Part shown: positions 1 to 8,993 of the stretch, one piece after another
Layout: each line of letters begins with the position of its first letter
Position numbering within the stretch: position 1 is the first letter of the stretch
Assembly: GCA_015485995.1 (NCBI GenBank)
Contig: WFSP01000043.1
Span: 1-8,993, forward strand
From: Caldisericales bacterium
GTDB taxonomy: Bacteria; Caldisericota; Caldisericia; Caldisericales; Caldisericaceae
Length of the DNA: 8,993 bases
Reading direction: 5' to 3'
The notes under the pieces: model-generated
What the model saw: the letters and a program-made list of their open reading frames with translations, nothing else
Told to the model about the DNA's origin: nothing
The model's database searches: none
Translations under genes and position numbers: made by a program

Positions 1-375
1 ATCAGGGTTATCAGATTCGTCATGGAGATGTTTGTTGTTAGTATTAGGTTTATTGTTGTTATCAGTTTTGGATTTGTCTCTATTGGAAGATTCACCTTTA
101 GACTTGTTCTCAGACTTAGATTTCTTTCTTCCTTTTGTACTTTTTGTACTTCCTTTTTGTTTTAACCTCTCGTTTCTGTTTGAAGTGTTTGAAGTTCTTT
201 TAGATGATTTAATGTTAATGACCTTTAACACAAAAGCAAGCATTCTGTTTACACCTTTTGCACTGTTATCAAATATACCTGTTACATACCTATCACCATC
301 ATACACTGCAATGTCTACTTTGTCTTTTGAGATGTCTATGCCTACTGATAGCATATTATCCTCCATTGACAACAT
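1..375 (-). CDS. IS110-family transposase (DEDD), N-terminal 125 residues, partial
   Basis: The reading frame is open from ATG at 375 down to position 1 and continues beyond the window, so only the N-terminus is visible. GGAGGG at 387-382, 6 nt before the ATG, supports this start. Residues 9-50 carry the family's first RuvC-like block: VGIDISKDKVDIAV (Asp14 is the first catalytic acid of the DEDD set), then a DG turn, an F-DN segment and an amphipathic helix ending near residue 53. In ordinary members the second acid, a Glu in an E-(A/P)-T-G motif, follows soon after. Here residues 55-125 are instead a hydrophilic low-complexity stretch dominated by Lys, Ser, Asn, Thr and Arg, including a repeated Ser-Thr-Lys triplet from a 9-bp tandem duplication at 133-150. 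The protein would cut and join DNA under guidance of a bridge RNA. Family assignment is firm from the N-terminus, but whether the whole protein is intact is unknown. Confidence 0.8.
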   Translation of the reverse strand, partial: MLSMEDNMLSVGIDISKDKVDIAVYDGDRYVTGIFDNSAKGVNRMLAFVLKVINIKSSKRTSNTSNRNERLKQKGSTKSTKGRKKSKSENKSKGESSNRDKSKTDNNNKPNTNNKHLHDESDNPD

Positions 376-446
376 TTCTATCCCTCCTATAATTAAATAG
401 ATTTGGTTGTGATATGGAATGTTTCCTTTGCCTATCATCGTAATAC

Positions 447-460
447 GGGCTTTAATGCCC
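447..460 (-). other. small GC hairpin between the candidate bridge RNA and the transposase start
   Basis: GGGC (447-450) and GCCC (457-460) form a 4-bp stem with a 6-nt loop, reading as a hairpin on either strand. It lies in the transposase leader, 72 nt before the start codon. It has no T-tract and is not a convincing terminator. It may be a 3' part of the structured RNA. Confidence 0.3.
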
Positions 461-489
461 AATGTACTTGTCCAGGTTTTAAGGGAACA

Positions 490-625
490 GGGAAAGTGGG
501 TTTAACATCCTGAACGGTTTCTAAGAACCAATGACAACATCAAACTTGCTCACTTTCCCCCATATCTCCAATCATACATACTAAGTATAACGAGAGATAT
601 GTTTCCACACAATCCATATACAACT
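490..625 (-). ncRNA. candidate IS110 bridge RNA (two stem-loops with internal loops)
   Basis: Read on the minus strand, the leader of the transposase gene folds into two adjacent nested hairpins. The first has an 8-bp stem, CATATCTC (601-594) with GAGATATG (568-561). It encloses a 5-nt and a 9-nt internal-loop side around a small ATAC/GTAT hairpin (588-578). Four bases later comes the second: a 9-bp stem GGGAAAGTG (559-551) with CACTTTCCC (498-490). It encloses a 21-nt and a 17-nt loop side around an inner GGTT/AACC hairpin (529-516). Two consecutive stem, internal-loop, terminal-hairpin units are the layout described for the target-binding and donor-binding loops of IS110 bridge RNAs. A promoter ends about 7 nt before 625. 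The guides are not proven, since the other end of the element and the insertion target are outside the window. The 5' and 3' ends given are approximate. Confidence 0.45.
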
Positions 626-631
626 GAGAGT

Positions 632-660
632 ATTATATACGATGACCTCTCCCCTGTCAC
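632..660 (-). promoter_or_regulatory. sigma70-type promoter for the IS110 leader RNA and transposase
   Basis: On the minus strand, GTGACA (660-655, five of six matches to the -35 consensus) is followed after exactly 17 bp by TATAAT (637-632, a perfect -10). Transcription would start near 625, just before the two stem-loops. In IS110 elements the promoter for the bridge RNA is often completed at the circular junction. Here both boxes are present in the linear copy, so either the element extends past 660 or the flank happens to supply the -35. Confidence 0.55.
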
Positions 661-705
661 ACTGAATGCAGCGAAGAATCTCTGAATAAACAACCTCTCC
701 CCAGT
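645..705. repeat. 13-bp direct repeat pair, 48 bp apart
   Basis: ACCTCTCCCCTGT at 645-657 and ACCTCTCCCCAGT at 693-705 differ at one base. The first copy lies in the spacer of the IS110 promoter and overlaps its -35 box. The second lies between that promoter and the end of the DUF2892 gene. They may mark the element boundary, a regulator site, or a remnant of an earlier insertion. Confidence 0.5.
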
Positions 706-767
706 TATGCAAAGCAAAGAGCCCACTCCTCAACAATAAACAATATTAAAATTACGCAGGCGAAAAT

Positions 768-1076
768 TTACATCTTTGAGATTCTGGATTTATTTGTATT
801 TATATGGAGAACTTTATAAAAAGGACAAAATCCGTTTGCACCGGTAAATATCAATATAAATCCCAAAGTCCACCCCAAAACCCTATATAGATCAGGGTGA
901 GTAGAAACGATAGATGCAAAAATATACTTAAAAGTACCCTGCCGATAATAAGCAGATTGAAAAAGCTCTGCTATAATGTTGACTTCTGATCCAAACCACA
1001 ATAGCAAAGCACCCACCACAACTCTTATAATTCTTTCGATTGGATGTAAGTTAACAATTTCATCATCTTTAATCAT
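768..1076 (-). CDS. small DUF2892 (YgaP-like) inner-membrane protein
   Basis: A 102-residue protein whose start at 1076 is supported by AGGGAG at 1090-1085, 8 nt upstream. The N-terminal segment (residues 10-30: HPIERII then a hydrophobic helix) and the C-terminal segment (residues 66-92: a second hydrophobic helix, then a GxxGFCPFYKVLHI motif with Cys84) match the DUF2892 pattern. That family has two transmembrane helices with a conserved Gly-Phe-Cys-Pro-hydrophobic-Tyr turn. Family members are usually about 60-75 residues. This one is longer because residues 31-65 insert a partly aromatic, charged loop between the helices. The biochemical role of the family is not established, although in some proteins the domain is fused to rhodanese. 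The gene is convergent with nothing in view and its 3' end abuts the IS110 leader region. It points away from the citrate operon and is probably not functionally tied to it. Confidence 0.75.
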   Translation of the reverse strand: MIKDDEIVNLHPIERIIRVVVGALLLWFGSEVNIIAELFQSAYYRQGTFKYIFASIVSTHPDLYRVLGWTLGFILIFTGANGFCPFYKVLHINTNKSRISKM

Positions 1077-1090
1077 TGCTTTCGCTCCCT

Positions 1091-1716
1091 AATTTTGACA
1101 TTTTTACAACGTTACAACAATATAGGTAACCAACCAAATTTTGCATATACAGATTGTTATTACTACGTTTTCTTATGTATATCATAAGCAGGCTTCCTAA
1201 CCTAATTCCTTTTATTTCTTTAAATATTATAGGATAGTTGTATTCACGGCATTCTGTAAACAATAAAGAAACACTACTTGTTTTGTGCCATAAAAAGTAA
1301 TAGACTTGCACAAAATCATAGAGAACCCCATTAATTGCAACGTTAAAATAATCCATATAATTATCCATTTTTTTGCCACCATATTTTTTATATTTTACAC
1401 TTTTCAGGTATATTCACAAGCCGCTAAATTGCCTCGTATCGACTTTGGGAAATTCGGTACTATTGAAGTCCCCGGCAAATCCAAAGCAAAAAAAATATAC
1501 ACGGCAATAAAAACCTTTGGCAATAAAACGTGCTGTTCAAAAATAAGGAATTCTTTAAATGTAAACTTCAAAATAACAAAAAGAAGTATCATTTTACTGC
1601 AAATAGCTTGCTTTCAGTACCAAAATGTGTTTACATTCAACATAAATAGGTATATTGCCTTATTACTTCTACTTCTATTTTATTCATTATCTTTAAAATA
1701 TTTGCCAGGATAGTTT
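1091..1716. other. AT-rich intergenic stretch of about 630 bp with no supportable gene
   Basis: Short open frames on both strands (1306-1713 plus, 1069-1368 minus, 1404-1592 minus) have poor starts and low-complexity hydrophobic translations, and I do not accept them. The segment around 1420-1530 is less AT-rich than its surroundings and could be the decayed remnant of a gene. It contains an exact 10-bp direct repeat, GGCAATAAAA, at 1503-1512 and 1519-1528 (16-bp period). I see no tRNA, no convincing terminator hairpin with a T-run, and no CRISPR-like repeats here. Confidence 0.5.
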
Positions 1717-1756
1717 TTAGCTTGACACAAAAGTTTAAGCGTATATAATTAGCTTG
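1717..1756 (+). promoter_or_regulatory. candidate operator: 8-bp direct repeat bracketing the promoter
   Basis: TTAGCTTG occurs at 1717-1724 and again, identical, at 1749-1756. The first copy overlaps the -35 box and the second overlaps the last base of the -10 box and the expected start site. The 32-bp centre-to-centre distance is about three helical turns, so both lie on the same DNA face. This would suit repression or autoregulation by a dimeric HTH protein such as the one encoded immediately downstream. It is a pattern seen in the sequence; binding is inference. Confidence 0.4.
1722..1749 (+). promoter_or_regulatory. strong sigma70-type promoter of the citrate operon
   Basis: TTGACA at 1722-1727 and TATAAT at 1744-1749 are perfect consensus hexamers with 16-bp spacing. 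Transcription should begin around 1756, giving an untranslated leader of about 52 nt before the regulator gene. I found no other promoter of this quality ahead of or between the five genes, so this is probably the main promoter for the whole operon. Confidence 0.8.
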
Positions 1757-1807
1757 GTATTAAAAAAATTGTAAGGTCATAAAAAATTTTGTATAAGAGG
1801 CGATAGC

Positions 1808-2482
1808 ATGTTTTCAAAAACAGATGAAGAAATAATAGAAGCCCTAAAGCCGGTGGTAAAAGGAATTGCCTTACTTATTGGAAATGACTGTGAAGTTGTT
1901 TTGCATTCATTTAAAGATATGGAACGCTCAATTGTTGCAATCGAAAACGGAAAAGTTACCGGCAGAAAACTCGGCTCTTCACTTACAGATTCGGGCCTTG
2001 AAATTATAGAAGAAATAGTGAAGCAAGGGAAAGAAATCGTTGGACCCTACAGAGGGGTAGTACCCAACGGAAGGCCTCTCCGCTCTGTTACCGTACCAAT
2101 AAGAAACAAAAATGCAAGACTTATTGGAGCAATTTGTATGAATTTTGACATAAGTAAAATAACAAACATCAAAGAATTTATTGATAATATCACTACATTT
2201 CCACACGAAAAAATACTCGGTGCAAAAGTTGCAAAGAGCAGTTCCCTTTCCATAGATGAACTTATGAAACAAATTTTTAGAGAAGTTTTGCTATCCACCG
2301 GGGCAAAAGGAAACTTGCCACCTCACGAGCGAAACAGGCTCATAGTAAAAGAACTTTACAGAAGAAAATTCTTTCAGATAAAAGACTCTATAGATTTGGT
2401 GGCAAGCAAGTTAGGGATTTCACGCTTTACAATCTATAACTATATTAGAGAATTAAAGTTTGAAGAAAAGAATAGGGGGTAG
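1808..2482 (+). CDS. YheO/DauR-type transcriptional regulator (PAS-like sensor plus HTH)
   Basis: A 224-residue cytoplasmic DNA-binding protein. Residues 8-116 match the YheO-like PAS-type sensor domain: an N-terminal helix, GNDCEVVLHSF near 25-35, a G-x-x-L/T-D-x-G region at 56-63, and V-P-I-R-N-x-N-x-x-L-I-G-A-I-C-x-N-F-D at 96-114. Residues about 155-216 match the C-terminal HTH of the same family. This includes LPPHERNRLIVKELYRRKFF (170-189) and a helix-turn-helix at 196-215 (LVASKLGISRFTIYNYIREL). The start is supported by AAGAGG at 1795-1800, 7 nt upstream. The best-known member, DauR, represses D-arginine catabolism; the ligand here is unknown. The gene leads a tight operon, its stop lying 2 nt before the aconitase start, so it very probably controls its own operon. 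A TCA-cycle acid (citrate, isocitrate or 2-oxoglutarate) is a reasonable but untested ligand. Confidence 0.88.
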   Translation: MFSKTDEEIIEALKPVVKGIALLIGNDCEVVLHSFKDMERSIVAIENGKVTGRKLGSSLTDSGLEIIEEIVKQGKEIVGPYRGVVPNGRPLRSVTVPIRNKNARLIGAICMNFDISKITNIKEFIDNITTFPHEKILGAKVAKSSSLSIDELMKQIFREVLLSTGAKGNLPPHERNRLIVKELYRRKFFQIKDSIDLVASKLGISRFTIYNYIRELKFEEKNRG

Positions 2483-2484
2483 CT

Positions 2485-4443
2485 ATGGGGAAAAACATTA
2501 TTCAAAAAGTTATTGACGGCCATCTCATTGAAGGGAAGCCCATTCCTGGAGAAGAAGTGGGTATCCGCGTAGATCAAACTTTGACACAGGATGCAACAGG
2601 AACAGCGGCTTACCTTGAATTTGAGGCAATGGGATTTAAAGAAGTAAAAACAGAGGCTGTAAGTTTTGTAGACCACAACACTGTGCAAGTTGGATTCGAA
2701 AACGCTGATGATCATAACTATTTGAGGACTGTTGCAAAGAAATATGGAATCACCTTTTCACGTCCAGGAAATGGCATTTGCCATCAGGTTCAGCTCGAGA
2801 GATTTGCAAAACCAGGCAAAATATTGATAGGTTCCGATTCACACACACCTACGGCAGGAGGAATTGGTGAGCTTGCAGTAGGAGTTGGAGGATTGGACGT
2901 TGCTGTTGCTATGGGAGGAGGGCCGTATTATTTAACTTATCCGAAAGTTATTAAAATTGAACTTACGGGAAAGTTACGTCCCTGGGTTTCTGCAAAAGAC
3001 ATAGTACTCAAAGTGCTTTCGATTCTTCACACAAAAGGAAACGTAGGTTATGCAATTGAGTACAGCGGAGAAGGCCTAAAAACACTTACCGTTCCAGAAC
3101 GCGCAACAATCACAAATATGGGTGCGGAAACAGGAGTTACTACATCAATATTTCCGTCAGATGAGATGACTTATGATTTTATGAAAAAAGAAGGAAGAGA
3201 AAAAGATTGGATAGAATTAAAAGCAAACCCAGATGCAGAATATGATAGGGTAATAAAAATAAACCTATCTGATATTGAGCCAATGATCGCTTGTCCTGAT
3301 TCGCCCGGCAACGTAAAAACCGTAAGAGAAGTTGAAGGCATACATGTGGATCAAGTTGCAGTTGGAAGCTGTACAAACTCATCCTATAGAGACCTTATGA
3401 CCGTTGCGCACATTTTGAAAGGACAAGTAGCACATCCTGATATAGAGTTTGGCGTTGCACCGGGTTCAAAGCAAGTTATCGAAATGGTAGATGAAGGAAA
3501 GGGGCTTGAAACTCTTGTTAAAGCAGGTGCACGTATTTTTGAATCTGCTTGTGGTTTTTGCATAGGAAACAGTTTTGCACCGGGAACAAATGCCATATCA
3601 CTAAGGACAAACAACAGAAACTTTAAGGGAAGATGTGGTACTAAGAGCGCTCAGGTATATCTTGTTAGCCCCGAAACCGCAGCTGCTGCCGTAATTACAG
3701 GGCAAATTACAGACCCACGTAAATTAGAAAGTATGGGAATAAAGTATGAGGATGTAAGGCTTCCGGACAGGTTTATTTTGGATGATTCAATGTTTATATT
3801 CCCACTTCCTGCAGATGAAAGAAAACAGGTAGAAATCTTCCGTGGACCGAATATTAAACCGATTCCAAATAATGAGCCTCTTGCAGAATTCATAAAGGGA
3901 GTTATTACTATAAAAGTAGGGGATAAAACCACGACTGATCATATTATGCCTGCCGGTGCTTATTTAAAACTTCGCTCTAATGTGCCTAAGTATGCTACAC
4001 ATGTTTTTGAACCCATAGACCCTTCATTCCCTCAACGATCGCTAAATAACAAAGAAAAAGGCATTGCAAATATCATCGTAGGAGGAGAGAGTTATGGGCA
4101 GGGTTCATCCAGAGAGCACGCTGCTCTGTGCCCAATGTATCTCGGAGTAAAAGCAGTTATTGCGAAAACAATAGAGAGAATACACCAGGCAAATCTTGTA
4201 AACTTTGGCATTGTTCCGCTTTTATTCGAAAACTACGAGGATTATAATTCTATTGAGCAAGACGATGAAGTAGAAATCTCAAATGTAAGAAAAGCGATAG
4301 GCAATGGGGAAAAAGAGGTTATATTGAAAAATATCTCTAAAAATAAAGAAATTAAATTAAAACTGTTCCTTACTGATAGACAGAGAGAAATCATTCTTGA
4401 GGGAGGATTACTCCCCTATACAGCCAAAGGAGGTAGGTCTTAA
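2485..4443 (+). CDS. acn: aconitate hydratase (aconitase), mitochondrial-like 4Fe-4S type
   Basis: Catalyses the reversible citrate to isocitrate isomerisation through cis-aconitate in the cytoplasm. The 652-residue length fits the compact bacterial aconitase class, shorter than the roughly 890-residue AcnA or AcnB. The 4Fe-4S ligands are visible as Cys296 in VGSCTNSS and Cys356/Cys359 in ACGFCIGN. The substrate and dehydratase motifs include GSDSHTPTAGGIG (116-128), a glycine-rich VGGLDVAVAMGGGP (134-147), and in the swivelling C-terminal domain DHIMPAG (485-491) and GESYGQGSSREHAAL (534-548, active-site Ser/Arg region). LeuC-type isopropylmalate isomerase is excluded because both large and small domains are in one chain. 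The start has AGGGGG at 2474-2479, overlapping the end of the regulator gene, which implies translational coupling. The last base of the stop codon is the first base of the next gene (TAATG). Nothing is missing or broken. Confidence 0.95.
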   Translation: MGKNIIQKVIDGHLIEGKPIPGEEVGIRVDQTLTQDATGTAAYLEFEAMGFKEVKTEAVSFVDHNTVQVGFENADDHNYLRTVAKKYGITFSRPGNGICHQVQLERFAKPGKILIGSDSHTPTAGGIGELAVGVGGLDVAVAMGGGPYYLTYPKVIKIELTGKLRPWVSAKDIVLKVLSILHTKGNVGYAIEYSGEGLKTLTVPERATITNMGAETGVTTSIFPSDEMTYDFMKKEGREKDWIELKANPDAEYDRVIKINLSDIEPMIACPDSPGNVKTVREVEGIHVDQVAVGSCTNSSYRDLMTVAHILKGQVAHPDIEFGVAPGSKQVIEMVDEGKGLETLVKAGARIFESACGFCIGNSFAPGTNAISLRTNNRNFKGRCGTKSAQVYLVSPETAAAAVITGQITDPRKLESMGIKYEDVRLPDRFILDDSMFIFPLPADERKQVEIFRGPNIKPIPNNEPLAEFIKGVITIKVGDKTTTDHIMPAGAYLKLRSNVPKYATHVFEPIDPSFPQRSLNNKEKGIANIIVGGESYGQGSSREHAALCPMYLGVKAVIAKTIERIHQANLVNFGIVPLLFENYEDYNSIEQDDEVEISNVRKAIGNGEKEVILKNISKNKEIKLKLFLTDRQREIILEGGLLPYTAKGGRS

Positions 4444-5663
4444 TGAAAATTACAGTAGAAAATGGGAAGATGATTGTTCCCGACAATCCGACAATTCCGT
4501 ACATTATTGGCGACGGCATTGGAAGGGATATCACACCAGTTGCATTGAAAGTTTTTGACGCGGCAGTAGAAAAAGCTTATGGTGGCAAAAAAAAGGTAAA
4601 GTGGAAAAAAGTTCTCGCAGGCAAAGAGGCAATTCGGGAAAAAGGGGAACCTCTTCCCCAGGAAACAATCGACACATTGAGAGAATATATCGTATCAATA
4701 AAAGGTCCTTTAACAACACCGGTAGGCGGCGGTTACAGATCTCTGAACGTAACGCTTAGACAAGTTTTAGATTTATTTGTATGCTTAAGGCCAGTTAAAT
4801 ATTTGAAAGGCGTTCCTTCGCCTATGAAACATCCGGAACTTTTAGACATTGTAGTATTTAGAGAAAATACAGAAGATGTTTATGCCGGTATTGAATGGCC
4901 GTATGATTCGGCAGAAGCCGCAGAGATAAGAAATTTTCTTAAAAACAAGATGAATGTAAATCTAAGAGACGATGCCGGCATTGGAATAAAACCAATAAGC
5001 ATTTTCGGCTCAAGGCGAATTGGAAAAGCAGTAATTGATTATGCATTAAAGTACGGGAGAAAATCTGTTACTGTAGTGCATAAAGGAAATATTATGAAAT
5101 ATACGGAGGGGCTTTTCAAAAAAGTAATTTACGATCTTGCGGATACCCCGGGATACAAGGACAAATTAATTACAGAAGAAAGAGTAATGAAAGAATTTGA
5201 CGGTAAAGTTCCTGAAGGAAAGATAGTGCTAAAGAGTAGAATTGCGGATGCAATGTTCCAACAGCTCTTATTAAGGCCAAACGAGTATGATATGATCGTA
5301 ACACCGAACCTTGACGGCGATTATCTGTCAGATGCTGCAGCCGCACAAGTTGGAGGGTTAGGAATGGCACCCGGAGGAAATATCAACTTCGACACACACA
5401 TTGCTCTGTTCGAAGCAACTCACGGTACAGCACCGAAACATGCGGACAAAAATGAAATAAATCCAGGTTCAATCATACTTTCGGGTGGTGAAATGTTCCA
5501 ATACCTTGGTTGGAATAAAGTAAAATATATGATAACAGAAGCAATAGAAAAAACTATTGCAGAGAAATATGTTACATACGACCTTGCAAGGCAAATCGAG
5601 GGTGCAACAAAAGTTTCTACATCGGATTTTGGCGATAGAATAATCAAGAACTTGGAGGCATAA
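4443..5663 (+). CDS. icd: isocitrate dehydrogenase, NADP-type, homodimeric family
   Basis: Interconverts isocitrate and 2-oxoglutarate + CO2. In the reductive direction it is the carboxylating step. The 406 residues align with E. coli Icd without large gaps. The isocitrate site is intact: Ser100, Asn102, Arg106, Arg116 and Arg140 (E. coli 113, 115, 119, 129, 153), catalytic Tyr147 and Lys214, and metal ligands Asp293 and Asp297 in NLDGDYLSDA. Cofactor determinants point to NADP: Lys332, Tyr379 and Arg383 match E. coli Lys344, Tyr391 and Arg395. However, the Tyr345 equivalent is His333 and Val351 is Ile339. Ser100 is the residue that AceK phosphorylates in enteric bacteria. AAAGGAGG at 4426-4433, 9 nt before the ATG, is a near-perfect ribosome site. 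The gene overlaps acn by 1 nt and ends 3 nt before aclB. Confidence 0.95.
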   Translation: MKITVENGKMIVPDNPTIPYIIGDGIGRDITPVALKVFDAAVEKAYGGKKKVKWKKVLAGKEAIREKGEPLPQETIDTLREYIVSIKGPLTTPVGGGYRSLNVTLRQVLDLFVCLRPVKYLKGVPSPMKHPELLDIVVFRENTEDVYAGIEWPYDSAEAAEIRNFLKNKMNVNLRDDAGIGIKPISIFGSRRIGKAVIDYALKYGRKSVTVVHKGNIMKYTEGLFKKVIYDLADTPGYKDKLITEERVMKEFDGKVPEGKIVLKSRIADAMFQQLLLRPNEYDMIVTPNLDGDYLSDAAAAQVGGLGMAPGGNINFDTHIALFEATHGTAPKHADKNEINPGSIILSGGEMFQYLGWNKVKYMITEAIEKTIAEKYVTYDLARQIEGATKVSTSDFGDRIIKNLEA

Positions 5664-5666
5664 AGA

Positions 5667-6923
5667 ATGGCACAACGCGGAATTCGTGAACATGATGCTA
5701 AAAGGCTGCTTGCAAAATACATAGAAAAGTTTTCTAACAGGAAATTCCATTATGAGGGAAATATTGCACTGATTACTTCAAAATATTCAATTGAAGATGC
5801 TGTAAGAGAGAATGAATGGATTAAAACGAAACGCCTGACCGTAAAGCCAGACCAGCTATTTGGAAAAAGAGGAAAACACGGCTTGGTTTTACTTAATGCA
5901 GACTTTGAACAGGCAAAAGAATGGATTAATGAACGAATGGAAAAAGAGGTGCAAATAGGGAAAGCACGAGGAAAACTTACGCATTTTTTGGTAGAACCAT
6001 TTGTACCCCATAAAGATGAATATTACATTGCGATAAAAACCGAGGCAGGAGGTGATAGGATCTATTCTTCTGAAGAAGGAGGAATAGATATAGAAGAAAA
6101 CTGGGATAAAGTAAAACAATTTTTTATACCAGTTGATGCAACTGTTGACAATGTCAATTTTACAGGAATAGATTCTTTAATTGTTGATTTTATAAAGGCA
6201 TTGCATAGAATTTTTGCAGAACTTGACTTTACCTATCTTGAAATTAACCCGTTCACTGTTGTAGGCAAAGAAGTTATTCCGCTTGACCTTGTTGCAAGGA
6301 TGGATGATACTGCTTACTTTTGGAATAAAGACAAATGGGGAAATATCAAATTTCCTACACCTTTCGGTAGAACATTTACAAAAGAAGAGCAATTCATTAG
6401 AAACCTGGATGAGAAAACAGGTGCCTCACTCAAACTTACCATTCTAAATCCACAAGGAAGAGTATGGCTGATGGTCGCAGGTGGAGGCGCAAGCGTTATC
6501 TATGCGGATACAGTTGTAGACTTGGGTTTCGGGGAGGAGCTTGCAAATTATGGAGAATATTCCGGAAACCCCTCCGAAGAAGAAACTTATCTATATGCAA
6601 AAACTATCCTTGACCTTATGACACGCAACAAAGACCCACGTGGTAAAACCCTTATCATAGGTGGAGGAATTGCAAATTTTACAGATGTCGCAAAAACATT
6701 CAAAGGAATTATTCGTGCATTGAGAGAGCATAGAGAAAAACTTATTGAGAATAATGTAAAAATATACGTAAGAAGAGGCGGGCCGAATTATAAAGAAGGA
6801 TTAAAAATGATGAGAGAGCTAGGAAACGAACTTAATGTCCCTATAAAAGTTTATGGACCTGAACTTCCAATGACACGAGTTGTAACTCTTGCACTAACCG
6901 GAGGGAAAAATGAAAATAATTAA
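5667..6923 (+). CDS. aclB: ATP-citrate lyase subunit AclB (ATP-grasp / citrate-binding part)
   Basis: One of two subunits of the split bacterial ATP-citrate lyase: citrate + ATP + CoA gives acetyl-CoA + oxaloacetate + ADP + Pi. The 418 residues align with the N-terminal third of animal ACLY. ATP-grasp landmarks are TVKPDQLFGKRGKHGLV (58-74), LVEPFVPHKDEYY (108-120), EEGGID (136-141) and YLEINPFTVVG (190-200). The succinyl-CoA-synthetase-beta-like half has GASLKLTILNPQGR (252-265), AGGGASVIYADTV (271-283), the citrate-binding NYGEYSGNPSEEETY (294-308), IIGGGIANFTDVA (330-342) and VRRGGPNYKEG (368-378). YGEYSG and the citrate loop separate it from SucC, so succinyl-CoA synthetase is unlikely. 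GGAGG at 5654-5658, 8 nt upstream, supports the start. The 3' end overlaps aclA by 14 nt. The length is slightly above the roughly 398 residues of Chlorobium AclB. Confidence 0.95.
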   Translation: MAQRGIREHDAKRLLAKYIEKFSNRKFHYEGNIALITSKYSIEDAVRENEWIKTKRLTVKPDQLFGKRGKHGLVLLNADFEQAKEWINERMEKEVQIGKARGKLTHFLVEPFVPHKDEYYIAIKTEAGGDRIYSSEEGGIDIEENWDKVKQFFIPVDATVDNVNFTGIDSLIVDFIKALHRIFAELDFTYLEINPFTVVGKEVIPLDLVARMDDTAYFWNKDKWGNIKFPTPFGRTFTKEEQFIRNLDEKTGASLKLTILNPQGRVWLMVAGGGASVIYADTVVDLGFGEELANYGEYSGNPSEEETYLYAKTILDLMTRNKDPRGKTLIIGGGIANFTDVAKTFKGIIRALREHREKLIENNVKIYVRRGGPNYKEGLKMMRELGNELNVPIKVYGPELPMTRVVTLALTGGKNENN

Positions 6924-8742
6924 CGAGAAAACCCAAGCAATTATATACGGCAGACAGATGAAGGCCGTCCAACGGATGCTGGATTTTGATTATGTTTCAA
7001 AAAGAGAAACACCTTCCGTTGCTACCATTGTTGACCCTACTGGTAAGGGTTTTGAAACAGCATTTTTTGGAAGCGAAGAAATTCTTATTCCTGTTTATAA
7101 AACAATTCAAGAGGCGGTAGAGCATCACAAAAATGCAATTGTTTTAATTAACTTTGCGTCGTACAGATCAGCATTTGAAACAACAAAAGAAGCAATAGAA
7201 ACAGAAACGATAAAAATTATTGCAGTAATTGCTGAAGGAATTCCAGAGAGAAAGGAAAGAATCCTCGGCGCCCTGGCAAGAAAGAAAGGAAAGGTAATTA
7301 TTGGCCCTGCAACGGTAGGTGGCATCGCTGCAGGTAGGTTTAGAATTGGAAATGCAGGTGGCAGTATCGAAAACATTGTTGCTTCCAAACTCTACCGCCC
7401 GGGTTCTGTTGGGCTTGTAACAAAATCCGGCGGAATGCTCAACGAAATGTTCAATCTCATAGCAAGAAATGCAGATGGAATAAATATTGGAATAGCAATT
7501 GGCGGCGATAGGTTCCCCGGTTCCTCACTTATTGACCATATTATGGGTTTTGAATCTGACCCTGAAGTTAAATTTCATGTCGTTCTTGGGGAAGTAGGCG
7601 GCCTTGAAGAGTATAAGATTGTCGATGCACTAAAGGCGGGCAAATTTAAAAAGCCTCTTGTTGCATGGGTGACAGGCACCTGTGCAAAAGTGTTCCCTAC
7701 TGAGGTTCAGTTTGGTCATGCAGGTGCACGCGCTGGCGCAGAAAGAGAAACGGCAGATGCAAAAAATGCTGCGCTGCGTGAAGCCGGAGCAATCGTTCCT
7801 GATTCCTTTGACGGACTTCCGGAAAAAATAAACGAGGTATACAAAAAACTAAAGGAAGAAGGGGAAATACCAGAGATAGAAGAATTTACCCCTCCGAACA
7901 TACCAATGGATTTTGAAAAAGCAGTTAAAGAAGGCCTTGTTAGAAGACATAGGCAGTTTATAACAACAATTTCCGATGATAGAGGGGAAGAGGTAAAATA
8001 CGCAGGAATACCTCTATCAGAAATAATTGAAAGTAAAAAGGGGCTTGGTTATGTTATAGGTCTCCTCTGGCTAAAAAAATCCCTTCCGGAATATGCATCG
8101 AACTTTATTGAACTTGTGCTAAAAATTGTTGCCGACCACGGGCCCTGTGTTTCAGGTGCACACAATGCAATTGTTACAGCACGCGCAGGAAAGGATCTTG
8201 TTTCCTCTGTTGCATCCGGAATTCTCACAATAGGGCCAAGGTTTGGCGGTGCAATAGACGGGGCAGGGCACTACTTCAAGTGGGCAAAAGACAACAATTT
8301 CTCTCCTGATGAATTTGTTTCGCATATGAAAAAAGAAGGAATCCCGATTCCTGGCATAGGGCACAGAGTAAAAAGCGTACGTAATCCGGATAAACGTGTT
8401 GAAATATTGAAGAAATATGCAAAAGAAAGTTTCCCAAAAACAGAATACCTTGGTTATGCACTTAAGGTTGAGAAAATCACAACATCCAAAAAGGAAAATC
8501 TCATTCTCAACGTCGATGGCTGCACAGGCGTTTTGCTTGTTGACTTGATGAAGTCCATAGAGCTTTCTGATGAAGAAATAAATGAACGTATCGATGCGGG
8601 GCTTCTCAATGCATTCTTTGTATTAGGAAGAACAATTGGAATTATAGGGCATACAATTGACCAAAAATTACTCAAATCCAAACTTTACAGAACTCCGTAT
8701 AACGACGTTTTATATAAATTACCTAAAAAAGCAGATTTGTAA
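6910..8742 (+). CDS. aclA: ATP-citrate lyase subunit AclA (phosphohistidine plus citrate-synthase-like lyase part)
   Basis: This subunit completes the ATP-citrate lyase. Its 610 residues match the roughly 608 of Chlorobium AclA and the C-terminal two-thirds of animal ACLY. Residues 1-320 are the SucD-like CoA-binding half, with IIGPATVGGI (130-139), YRPGSVGLVTKSGGM (162-176) and GGDRFPGSSL (198-207). VQFGHAGA (266-273) carries the phosphorylated His270. Residues about 335-610 are the citrate-synthase-like lyase half, with ADHGPCVSGAHN (408-419; His410, His418), GIGHRVKS (482-489; His485), NVDG with Asp536, and RTIGIIGHTIDQK (574-586). These last motifs exclude plain SucD or citrate synthase. 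The start at 6910 is supported by GGAGGG at 6900-6905, inside the end of aclB, so the subunits are probably translationally coupled for equal amounts. No catalytic residue is missing. It is the last gene of the operon. Confidence 0.95.
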   Translation: MKIINEKTQAIIYGRQMKAVQRMLDFDYVSKRETPSVATIVDPTGKGFETAFFGSEEILIPVYKTIQEAVEHHKNAIVLINFASYRSAFETTKEAIETETIKIIAVIAEGIPERKERILGALARKKGKVIIGPATVGGIAAGRFRIGNAGGSIENIVASKLYRPGSVGLVTKSGGMLNEMFNLIARNADGINIGIAIGGDRFPGSSLIDHIMGFESDPEVKFHVVLGEVGGLEEYKIVDALKAGKFKKPLVAWVTGTCAKVFPTEVQFGHAGARAGAERETADAKNAALREAGAIVPDSFDGLPEKINEVYKKLKEEGEIPEIEEFTPPNIPMDFEKAVKEGLVRRHRQFITTISDDRGEEVKYAGIPLSEIIESKKGLGYVIGLLWLKKSLPEYASNFIELVLKIVADHGPCVSGAHNAIVTARAGKDLVSSVASGILTIGPRFGGAIDGAGHYFKWAKDNNFSPDEFVSHMKKEGIPIPGIGHRVKSVRNPDKRVEILKKYAKESFPKTEYLGYALKVEKITTSKKENLILNVDGCTGVLLVDLMKSIELSDEEINERIDAGLLNAFFVLGRTIGIIGHTIDQKLLKSKLYRTPYNDVLYKLPKKADL

Positions 8743-8753
8743 CCGCTTTCCTT

Positions 8754-8787
8754 GTTTCACTCCTCTAAACCTCCGCAGGAGTTAAAC
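8754..8787 (+). other. imperfect hairpin 12 nt after aclA, possible operon end structure
   Basis: GTTT-c-ACTCCT (8754-8764) pairs with AGGAGT-t-AAAC (8777-8787), giving ten pairs, one mismatch and a 12-nt loop. It is not followed by a T-tract, so it is not a canonical intrinsic terminator. It may protect the 3' end of the transcript or belong to the flank of the neighbouring insertion sequence. Confidence 0.35.
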
Positions 8788-8860
8788 TCCACTTTGACAG
8801 TTCGTCCCATACTTCAAAACGTAGTTTGTAGGTAAATAGCGGTGCCCTGCTCCCCAAATC

Positions 8861-8993
8861 TGAGACAAAAATAAAGAGAGTGTTTTGTGCTCAGGTTATG
8901 GAAGTATTAAAATTAAATTAGTAAGGAAAGGAGAGTGATTGGACAATGAAGAAAAGGAAATTTACAGTGGAACAGATCATTCAGATCCTTGCA
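8861..8993 (+). mobile_element. IS3-family insertion sequence, left end, truncated by the window edge
   Basis: The end of the window enters an insertion sequence whose first gene looks like an IS3 OrfA. IS3 ends normally begin with TG. TGAGACAAAAATAAAGAG from 8861 is the best candidate for the left terminal inverted repeat, 85 nt ahead of the start codon. The sequence around it also folds back: CTGAGACAAAA (8860-8870) pairs with TTTTGTGCTCAG (8883-8894), with one bulged G at 8889. The right end lies outside the window, so the boundary is provisional. Confidence 0.5.
8946..8993 (+). CDS. IS3-family transposase OrfA, first 16 codons only
   Basis: The visible peptide, MKKRKFTVEQIIQILA, has the basic start followed by FT-x-EQII-x-IL that opens the HTH domain of many IS3-family OrfA proteins. 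That domain binds the element's ends. Its role and any frameshift into OrfB cannot be seen. AGGAG at 8929-8933 lies 12 nt before the ATG, a little far for a strong ribosome site. A GTG slightly upstream (8936) meets a stop within five codons, so the ATG is the start. Assignment rests on a short peptide, so other helix-turn-helix transposases remain possible. Confidence 0.6.
   Translation, partial: MKKRKFTVEQIIQILA

Follow-up and report, generated by a model that had tools for sequence, protein, structure and literature searches.

The 8,993-nucleotide stretch of DNA analysed here in full (the window; contig WFSP01000043.1 of a Caldisericales bacterium, positions 1 to 8,993 of the forward strand) carries, on its plus strand, five closely packed genes for a regulator and for the enzymes of the segment that joins 2-oxoglutarate, through citrate, to acetyl-CoA and oxaloacetate. 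The first gene (1808–2482) encodes a transcriptional regulator in which a YheO-like PAS_6 domain (PF08348, 2.7e-36) is followed by an HTH_22 domain (PF13309, 1.5e-16), both above their curated cut-offs; a search of Protein Data Bank sequences with this protein returned 0 matches. Behind it lie genes for aconitate hydratase (acn, 2485–4443; NF005558, 914.6 bits against a cut-off of 612) and NADP-dependent isocitrate dehydrogenase (icd, 4443–5663; TIGR00183, 577.4 bits against a cut-off of 567.3), the best solved-structure match of the latter being 1hqs. The last two genes encode subunits of ATP-citrate lyase (ACL): AclB (5667–6923), an ATP-grasp and citrate-binding protein with Citrate_synth_N and Citrate_bind domains (PF24948, 3.3e-73; PF16114, 9.7e-89), and AclA (6910–8742), in which a CoA-ligase part is joined to a citryl-CoA lyase domain (CoA_binding, Ligase_CoA and Citrate_synt; PF02629, PF00549 and PF00285). 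AclA matches the solved ACL chains 6hxi_B and 6znw_B over nearly its full length and contains the motifs GHAGA, SGAHN, GIGHR and NVDG, which we take to be the phospho-histidine motifs and the lyase His/Asp motifs. By its domains and motifs AclBA is a heteromeric ATP-citrate lyase, with citrate cleavage as its predicted activity. The spacings of +2, −1, +3 and −14 nt between the five genes, reported in an initial annotation made from the letters of this DNA alone, came out identical when recomputed from the open reading frame coordinates.

The window is Caldisericota-like: among 16 loci, the closest relatives of its AclB come from three Caldisericaceae metagenome-assembled genomes (84% identity in a gene cut by a contig end, 80% and 78%). 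Across 54 genomes of the phylum, AclB matches occur in 24. Twelve of these are true AclB (67–84% identity), and we call their genomes carriers; the other 12 are weak (26–33%) and resemble SucC, each followed by a SucD-like gene (by eye; only G011 was classified). Gene order is regulator-acn-icd-aclB-aclA in 10 of 10 carriers whose contigs span the operon, the contigs of the remaining two (G003 and G022) stopping inside it, and one further genome, G017, shows the operon's front, regulator-acn-icd, as far as its contig end. Isocitrate dehydrogenase of the window's type is found in 11 of the 54 genomes, namely the 10 with the whole operon and G017. Because of this fixed order and this restricted distribution the set behaves as a unit, which bears out the earlier proposals that the enzymes form one complete segment from 2-oxoglutarate to acetyl-CoA and oxaloacetate and that the regulator, whose homologue stands first in all 10 spanning relatives, belongs to it. 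Among the papers listed in searches of the open PMC library, none deals with this operon.

A sigma-70-type promoter, TTGACA-16-TATAAT, matches the consensus at 12 of 12 positions ahead of the regulator (1722–1749, plus strand). The window match alone is weak evidence, because the window holds two such 12/12 matches and a scan of it gave 36 promoter-like sites where 24.5 were expected. In all 11 loci compared (the window, nine carriers and G017; no shuffled control was included), however, the best promoter has a 16-nt spacer, lies 44–62 nt before the regulator and matches at 10–12 of 12 positions, so that the single consensus promoter named in the initial annotation has a counterpart in every one; locus L002, whose contig begins 63 nt upstream of the gene, was left out. 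Gaps between the genes range from −32 to +5 nt in 11 loci. The genes have the make-up of an operon, being co-directional, tightly spaced and preceded by a single conserved promoter, and all five are likely to be read as one transcript.

Two AAA-N(2-6)-TTGTA units, 20 bp apart, follow the promoter on the plus strand: ATTAAAAAAATTGTAAG at 1759–1775 and ATAAAAAATTTTGTATAAG at 1779–1797, the second directly before the ribosome-binding stretch. Only 2 of 500 shuffles of the window reach two units. Single units are common, at 4–18 per locus on both strands, and it is the spaced pair that stands out: of 12 acl loci, 8 (the window's among them) have a pair exactly 20 bp apart between promoter and regulator. 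By the same rule L001 has a single unit (a level reached by 55 of 500 shuffles), and a second one there carries a mismatch. Under a different rule, for an ungapped 17-mer repeat at 20-bp spacing, six loci (L002, L056, L058, L059, L060 and L001) score 14–17 of 17, equalled by 0 of 200 shuffles. A stricter pattern, applied to the 54 genomes, gave seven exact matches, each directly before this operon, and none in a reversed control; it was built from six of the seven matched loci, G017 being the independent one, and it misses the operons of G001, G010, G016 and G018. Since the repeat site is specific to the operon and falls between the −10 element and the start codon, it suggests autorepression, with the repeats as a candidate operator, and the operon is very probably self-regulated. 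The regulator, transcribed first, would repress its own operon through the two repeats over the transcription start, and a small-molecule ligand of its PAS_6 domain, perhaps 2-oxoglutarate, glutamate or proline, would release it. DauR may be another relative of this regulator. The YheO-like regulator Cj1387c has the same PAS_6-HTH domain pair, and its loss leads to more product of an adjacent gene, as reported in PMC4519771; its target genes differ from those of the window regulator, and its signal is given there as not known.

The neighbourhood of related regulators points to where in metabolism the operon acts. Among the 12 ACL-lacking genomes that have a SucC-like gene, a related regulator precedes sucC-sucD-korA-korB in four (G011, G013, G014 and G015; loci L139–L142). 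These suc-type regulators are 38–42% identical to that of the window, with the domains confirmed in the two of the four that were scanned, and similar repeats, 19–23 bp apart, precede the regulator gene in four of four. Their loci share the flanks of the acl operon, with a 2-oxoglutarate-type oxidoreductase, succinyl-CoA synthetase and a DASS transporter in the place of acn-icd-acl. The order is a DAO/sarcosine-oxidase-like complex upstream of the regulator (the PD complex), the regulator, sucC-sucD-korA-korB, a small third subunit and the DASS gene (functions classified in G011 only), followed by pheS in three of the four loci, the fourth contig ending there. Likewise, the PD complex precedes the acl operon in six of the eight loci with enough upstream DNA (L001, L057, L058, L059, L063 and L143, not L061 or L062), and pheS follows the operon in L061, L062 and L063. 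L063, from genome G018, has both flanks, PD complex and pheS, with indolepyruvate-oxidoreductase-like genes in between.

In a tree of the regulators (44 of 52 homologues plus 16 locus proteins; P0001–P0008, the nearest copies, were left out) the suc-type proteins nest among the acl-type, nearest those of G010 and G018. Support by the Shimodaira–Hasegawa-like approximate likelihood-ratio test (SH-aLRT) is 99 for the 30-row clade, 95 for the subclade, 93 for the inner group and 100 for the suc-type. The tree search was short, the root was placed at the midpoint and the suc branch is long; without a root, the two types simply face each other across a single branch. The most economical reading is that one lineage kept the regulator and operator and that sucCD-kor took the place of acn-icd-acl behind them. 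As both modules act on 2-oxoglutarate, we place the operon at the 2-oxoglutarate node. In that other Caldisericota lineage, the 2-oxoglutarate-type oxidoreductase, succinyl-CoA synthetase and DASS transporter would form an alternative outlet from the same node.

The wider gene content of the relatives is that of organisms living on amino acids. A gene of the ELFV (glutamate-dehydrogenase) family is present in 15 of 15 genomes, strong in 14, including 11 of the 12 carriers, and weak only in carrier G021. Carrier G001 encodes four oxidoreductases: a pyruvate type (by best match, below the cut-off), a branched-chain type with a butyrate kinase gene adjoining it, an indolepyruvate type and an OAFO-type pair; each of the four has its counterpart in G002 and in G003. 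A further gene of G001 encodes an archaeal-type phosphoenolpyruvate carboxylase (L148, 11719–13170; TIGR02751, 617 bits against a cut-off of 146), about 4 kb from its ELFV-dehydrogenase gene. Such a gene set is that of an organism using amino acids, in agreement with PMC10356935, where the phylum is called heterotrophic.

We therefore favour, with a probability of about 0.6, the view that the operon is a self-regulated 2-oxoglutarate module of an amino-acid-using heterotroph, its enzymes forming a linear segment that runs mainly in the carboxylating direction. Glutamate or proline would yield 2-oxoglutarate and NADPH; isocitrate dehydrogenase would combine 2-oxoglutarate, CO2 and NADPH into isocitrate, aconitase would turn this into citrate, and ACL, with ATP and CoA, would split citrate into acetyl-CoA and oxaloacetate. 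The net role would be the uptake of carbon from glutamate-family amino acids. Taken this way glutamate would be used in a redox-neutral manner, whereas the Kor–SucCD route would release reducing power that needs an acceptor. More tentatively, and with the odds against it, the operon may serve an undescribed route of glutamate or proline fermentation in which citrate is made reductively, balancing the NADPH formed by glutamate dehydrogenase, and is cleaved to acetyl-CoA and oxaloacetate, the regulator and operator having passed between the two routes by in-place exchange of the module.

Several observations weigh against a self-regulated module running in the carboxylating direction. The direction of flux is something we infer and is not given by the sequence, and the phosphoenolpyruvate carboxylase of G001 is another source of oxaloacetate that fits the biosynthetic direction equally well. 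The OAFO-type oxidoreductase of G001–G003 might itself oxidise 2-oxoglutarate. Both operator rules were written after the sequences had been seen; by the unit rule L061, L062 and L063 (carriers G016, G010 and G018) have no repeat units, and by the 17-mer rule the window's own pair scores a weak 12 of 17, a level that 23 of 200 shuffles attain, and the repeat is likewise not significant in these same three loci or in L057, where the start codon is misplaced. The same three carriers have an AclA in which NIGG replaces NVDG, so that the Asp is lost. The PD complex families score below curated cut-offs, and the other eight ACL-lacking genomes with a SucC-like gene (G044–G050 and G054) show no regulator of this kind beside sucCD within the DNA viewed. 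Finally, the relatives' genomes are of unstated completeness.

The initial annotation had seen in the operon the citrate branch of a reductive TCA cycle, placed so that one signal could switch the cycle's direction; autotrophy or mixotrophy would be the way of life. All enzymes of the citrate branch are indeed present, G001–G003 have 2-oxoacid:ferredoxin oxidoreductases, and the nearest outside AclB among the rows compared belongs to Thermoplasmatota, for which PMC9802188 proposes the reductive cycle, using ACL as a key enzyme. Several of the other cycle enzymes, which are not in view in the window, were searched for in the genomes of relatives, not in the window's own, and were not found. A stand-alone, full-length citrate synthase is absent from all 54 phylum genomes by PF00285, whose matches, in 12 of the 54, fall in the same 12 carriers at AclA. 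On its own this is unremarkable and the common state of ACL genomes: of 10 others examined, 9 are also without the full-length enzyme. What is remarkable is its joint absence with the C4 enzymes. No SucC beyond AclB exceeds the PF08442 cut-off in the 12 carriers: among 14 genomes the cut-off is exceeded in 11, comprising 10 carriers, always at AclB, and non-carrier G011, which is without ACL and has a true SucC. As for the rest, G022 falls below the cut-off at its cut aclB, G003 (also with a cut aclB) and G004 have no match, and in G023 there is an additional fragment below the cut-off. None of the 14 genomes has a class I fumarase that exceeds its cut-off, with one sub-cut-off match in G002 and class II not searched for.

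The flavoprotein of succinate dehydrogenase/fumarate reductase was found in none of the eight carriers tested by PF02910, a search that excluded carriers G010, G020, G021 and G022 and does not cover reductases without this domain. PF02910 did match in 2 of 10 genomes (the eight carriers and two others), and both candidates, in G009 and G016, were rejected: L083 is NadB by NCBIfam, and L084 was read as NadB by eye on the basis of neighbours that look like quinolinate-synthesis genes. A hidden Re-citrate synthase or isopropylmalate synthase was similarly set aside, as the HMGL family occurs in only 3 of 10 genomes and its members there resemble OadA/PycB (the G001 protein by classification, the other two by eye from their starts). 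As for 2-oxoglutarate:ferredoxin oxidoreductase, G001–G003 have the OAFO-type pair, which may or may not act on this substrate, and the KorA type of G011 is not among their four POR_N genes (best identity 36%). Any one absence could stem from the incompleteness of a genome; that explanation is harder to extend to all of them together. As far as the relatives show, with no citrate synthase, SucC (12 carriers), class I fumarase (14 genomes) or succinate dehydrogenase/fumarate reductase flavoprotein (8 carriers) found and the phylum called thermophilic heterotrophs in PMC10356935, the locus seems not to belong to a CO2-fixing cycle, and we consider a working reductive cycle very improbable. Judged from the same genomes, the operon would make up all of the citrate metabolism in a Caldisericota heterotroph. 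The alternative offered in the initial annotation, acetyl-CoA supply from citrate in a heterotroph, came closer than the cycle.

The main rival is the same segment run backwards: ACL would be the sole citrate synthase, turning acetyl-CoA, oxaloacetate, ADP and phosphate into citrate and ATP, and the citrate would pass by way of aconitase and isocitrate dehydrogenase to 2-oxoglutarate for glutamate synthesis. In its favour, none of the 54 genomes has another full-length citrate synthase, and the HMGL family, to which a Re-citrate synthase would belong, occurs in 3 of 10 and is represented in G001 by OadA/PycB; phosphoenolpyruvate carboxylase could supply the oxaloacetate in G001, and NADP-dependent isocitrate dehydrogenase is commonly oxidative. 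However, the Chlorobium enzyme reportedly only cleaves, synthesis would presumably require high oxaloacetate on thermodynamic grounds, and the module adjoins an amino-acid-dehydrogenase-like complex and alternates with sucCD-kor. We regard this direction as unlikely, if the most serious competitor. Far less probable is the use of imported citrate, split by ACL to acetyl-CoA and oxaloacetate and converted by aconitase and isocitrate dehydrogenase to 2-oxoglutarate and NADPH. A branch point at citrate would employ all four enzymes, but no DASS-like gene was found by BLAST in the 11 acl loci, a search that took in neither other transporter families nor the remaining genome.

The initial annotation had also set the full C6 segment against the well-studied Chlorobium case, in which aclB and aclA form their own pair. 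Clustering of the full segment with aclBA is not unusual, since whole clusters exist in three other phyla. The order is acn-aclB-aclA-icd in Thermoplasmatota (L003, L004 and L016) and Cloacimonadota (L007) and acn-icd-aclB-aclA in L005, a genome titled Deltaproteobacteria and labelled Myxococcota. Their isocitrate dehydrogenases are of other families than the window's: monomeric in L007, eukaryote-like NADP-dependent in L005 and LEU3/NAD-like in L003, L004 and L016 (in L004 by BLAST only). No homologue of the window regulator was matched in these cluster loci, the contig of L003 starting inside acn. The window's AclB is nearest, among the rows compared, to Thermoplasmatota (SH-aLRT 96) and its aconitase groups with Cloacimonadota (99), and parts of the operon may therefore have different histories. 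Several isocitrate dehydrogenase families beside aclBA across phyla suggest that the same segment has been assembled repeatedly.

The aclBA pairs of Chlorobium, Aquificota and Campylobacterota encode the same heteromeric ACL, with aclB before aclA, and serve a full reductive cycle; in both Aquificota loci read (L008 and L010) an isocitrate dehydrogenase, again monomeric, adjoins aclBA. The window differs from these autotrophs in that several cycle enzymes were not found in its relatives and a regulator is the first gene. Animal cells carboxylate 2-oxoglutarate reductively through isocitrate dehydrogenase, aconitase and ACLY, the same string of reactions as in this operon under unrelated regulation. 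They keep a full TCA cycle beside it, whereas here the operon would be the sole citrate route. Patescibacteria with ACL and no other cycle genes are noted in PMC9671151, and for a Caldisericum exile-like population in a hot-vent metagenome PMC4620420 lists a citryl-CoA synthetase gene, ccsA, which may instead be the related SucC.

In metagenomes ACL is used as a key enzyme by which autotrophic carbon fixation is recognised, for example in PMC9802188, and that marker alone would mislead here, the remainder of the cycle not having been found in this lineage. The locus also shows two 2-oxoglutarate routes exchanged behind regulators that are related and have similar repeats. This opens to direct test what ACL does in heterotrophs and which ligand the little-known PAS_6 regulators bind. 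The gene set is already known in kind; the candidate operator, the isolated segment and the module swap are new.

The three carriers with a variant AclA (G016, G010 and G018; L061, L062 and L063) deserve separate mention. The Asp of NVDG that they lack is presumably catalytic in the lyase domain; an apparent loss of GIGH in the same proteins proved to be an artefact, as GFGHK keeps the His. G018 has, 3′ of its operon (L063, 5226–6191), an extra stand-alone lyase domain of 321 amino acids with its motifs kept, a second PF00285 match of which G010 and G016 have no equivalent. It is 74% identical to the C-terminus of the window's AclA and 58% to the AclA of its own genome, and the arrangement looks as if the enzyme were being divided into a two-part citryl-CoA synthetase/lyase system.

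Around the operon in the window, a YgaP-like membrane protein gene (768–1076, minus strand) has homologues in L001 and L143, where they stand between PD complex and regulator, and, judging from it, the window's left flank may once have carried a PD complex. Both ends of the window (1–462, minus strand, and 8946–8993, plus strand) resemble pieces of insertion sequences by eye, the left with an IS110-like start, a low-complexity tail and no Pfam match, the right like the start of an IS3-like OrfA. In L057, L058 and L059 an 8-oxoguanine-deaminase-like gene (classified in L058) lies 3′ of the operon, and further neighbours of similar sizes resemble, by eye, subunits of the xanthine-dehydrogenase type.

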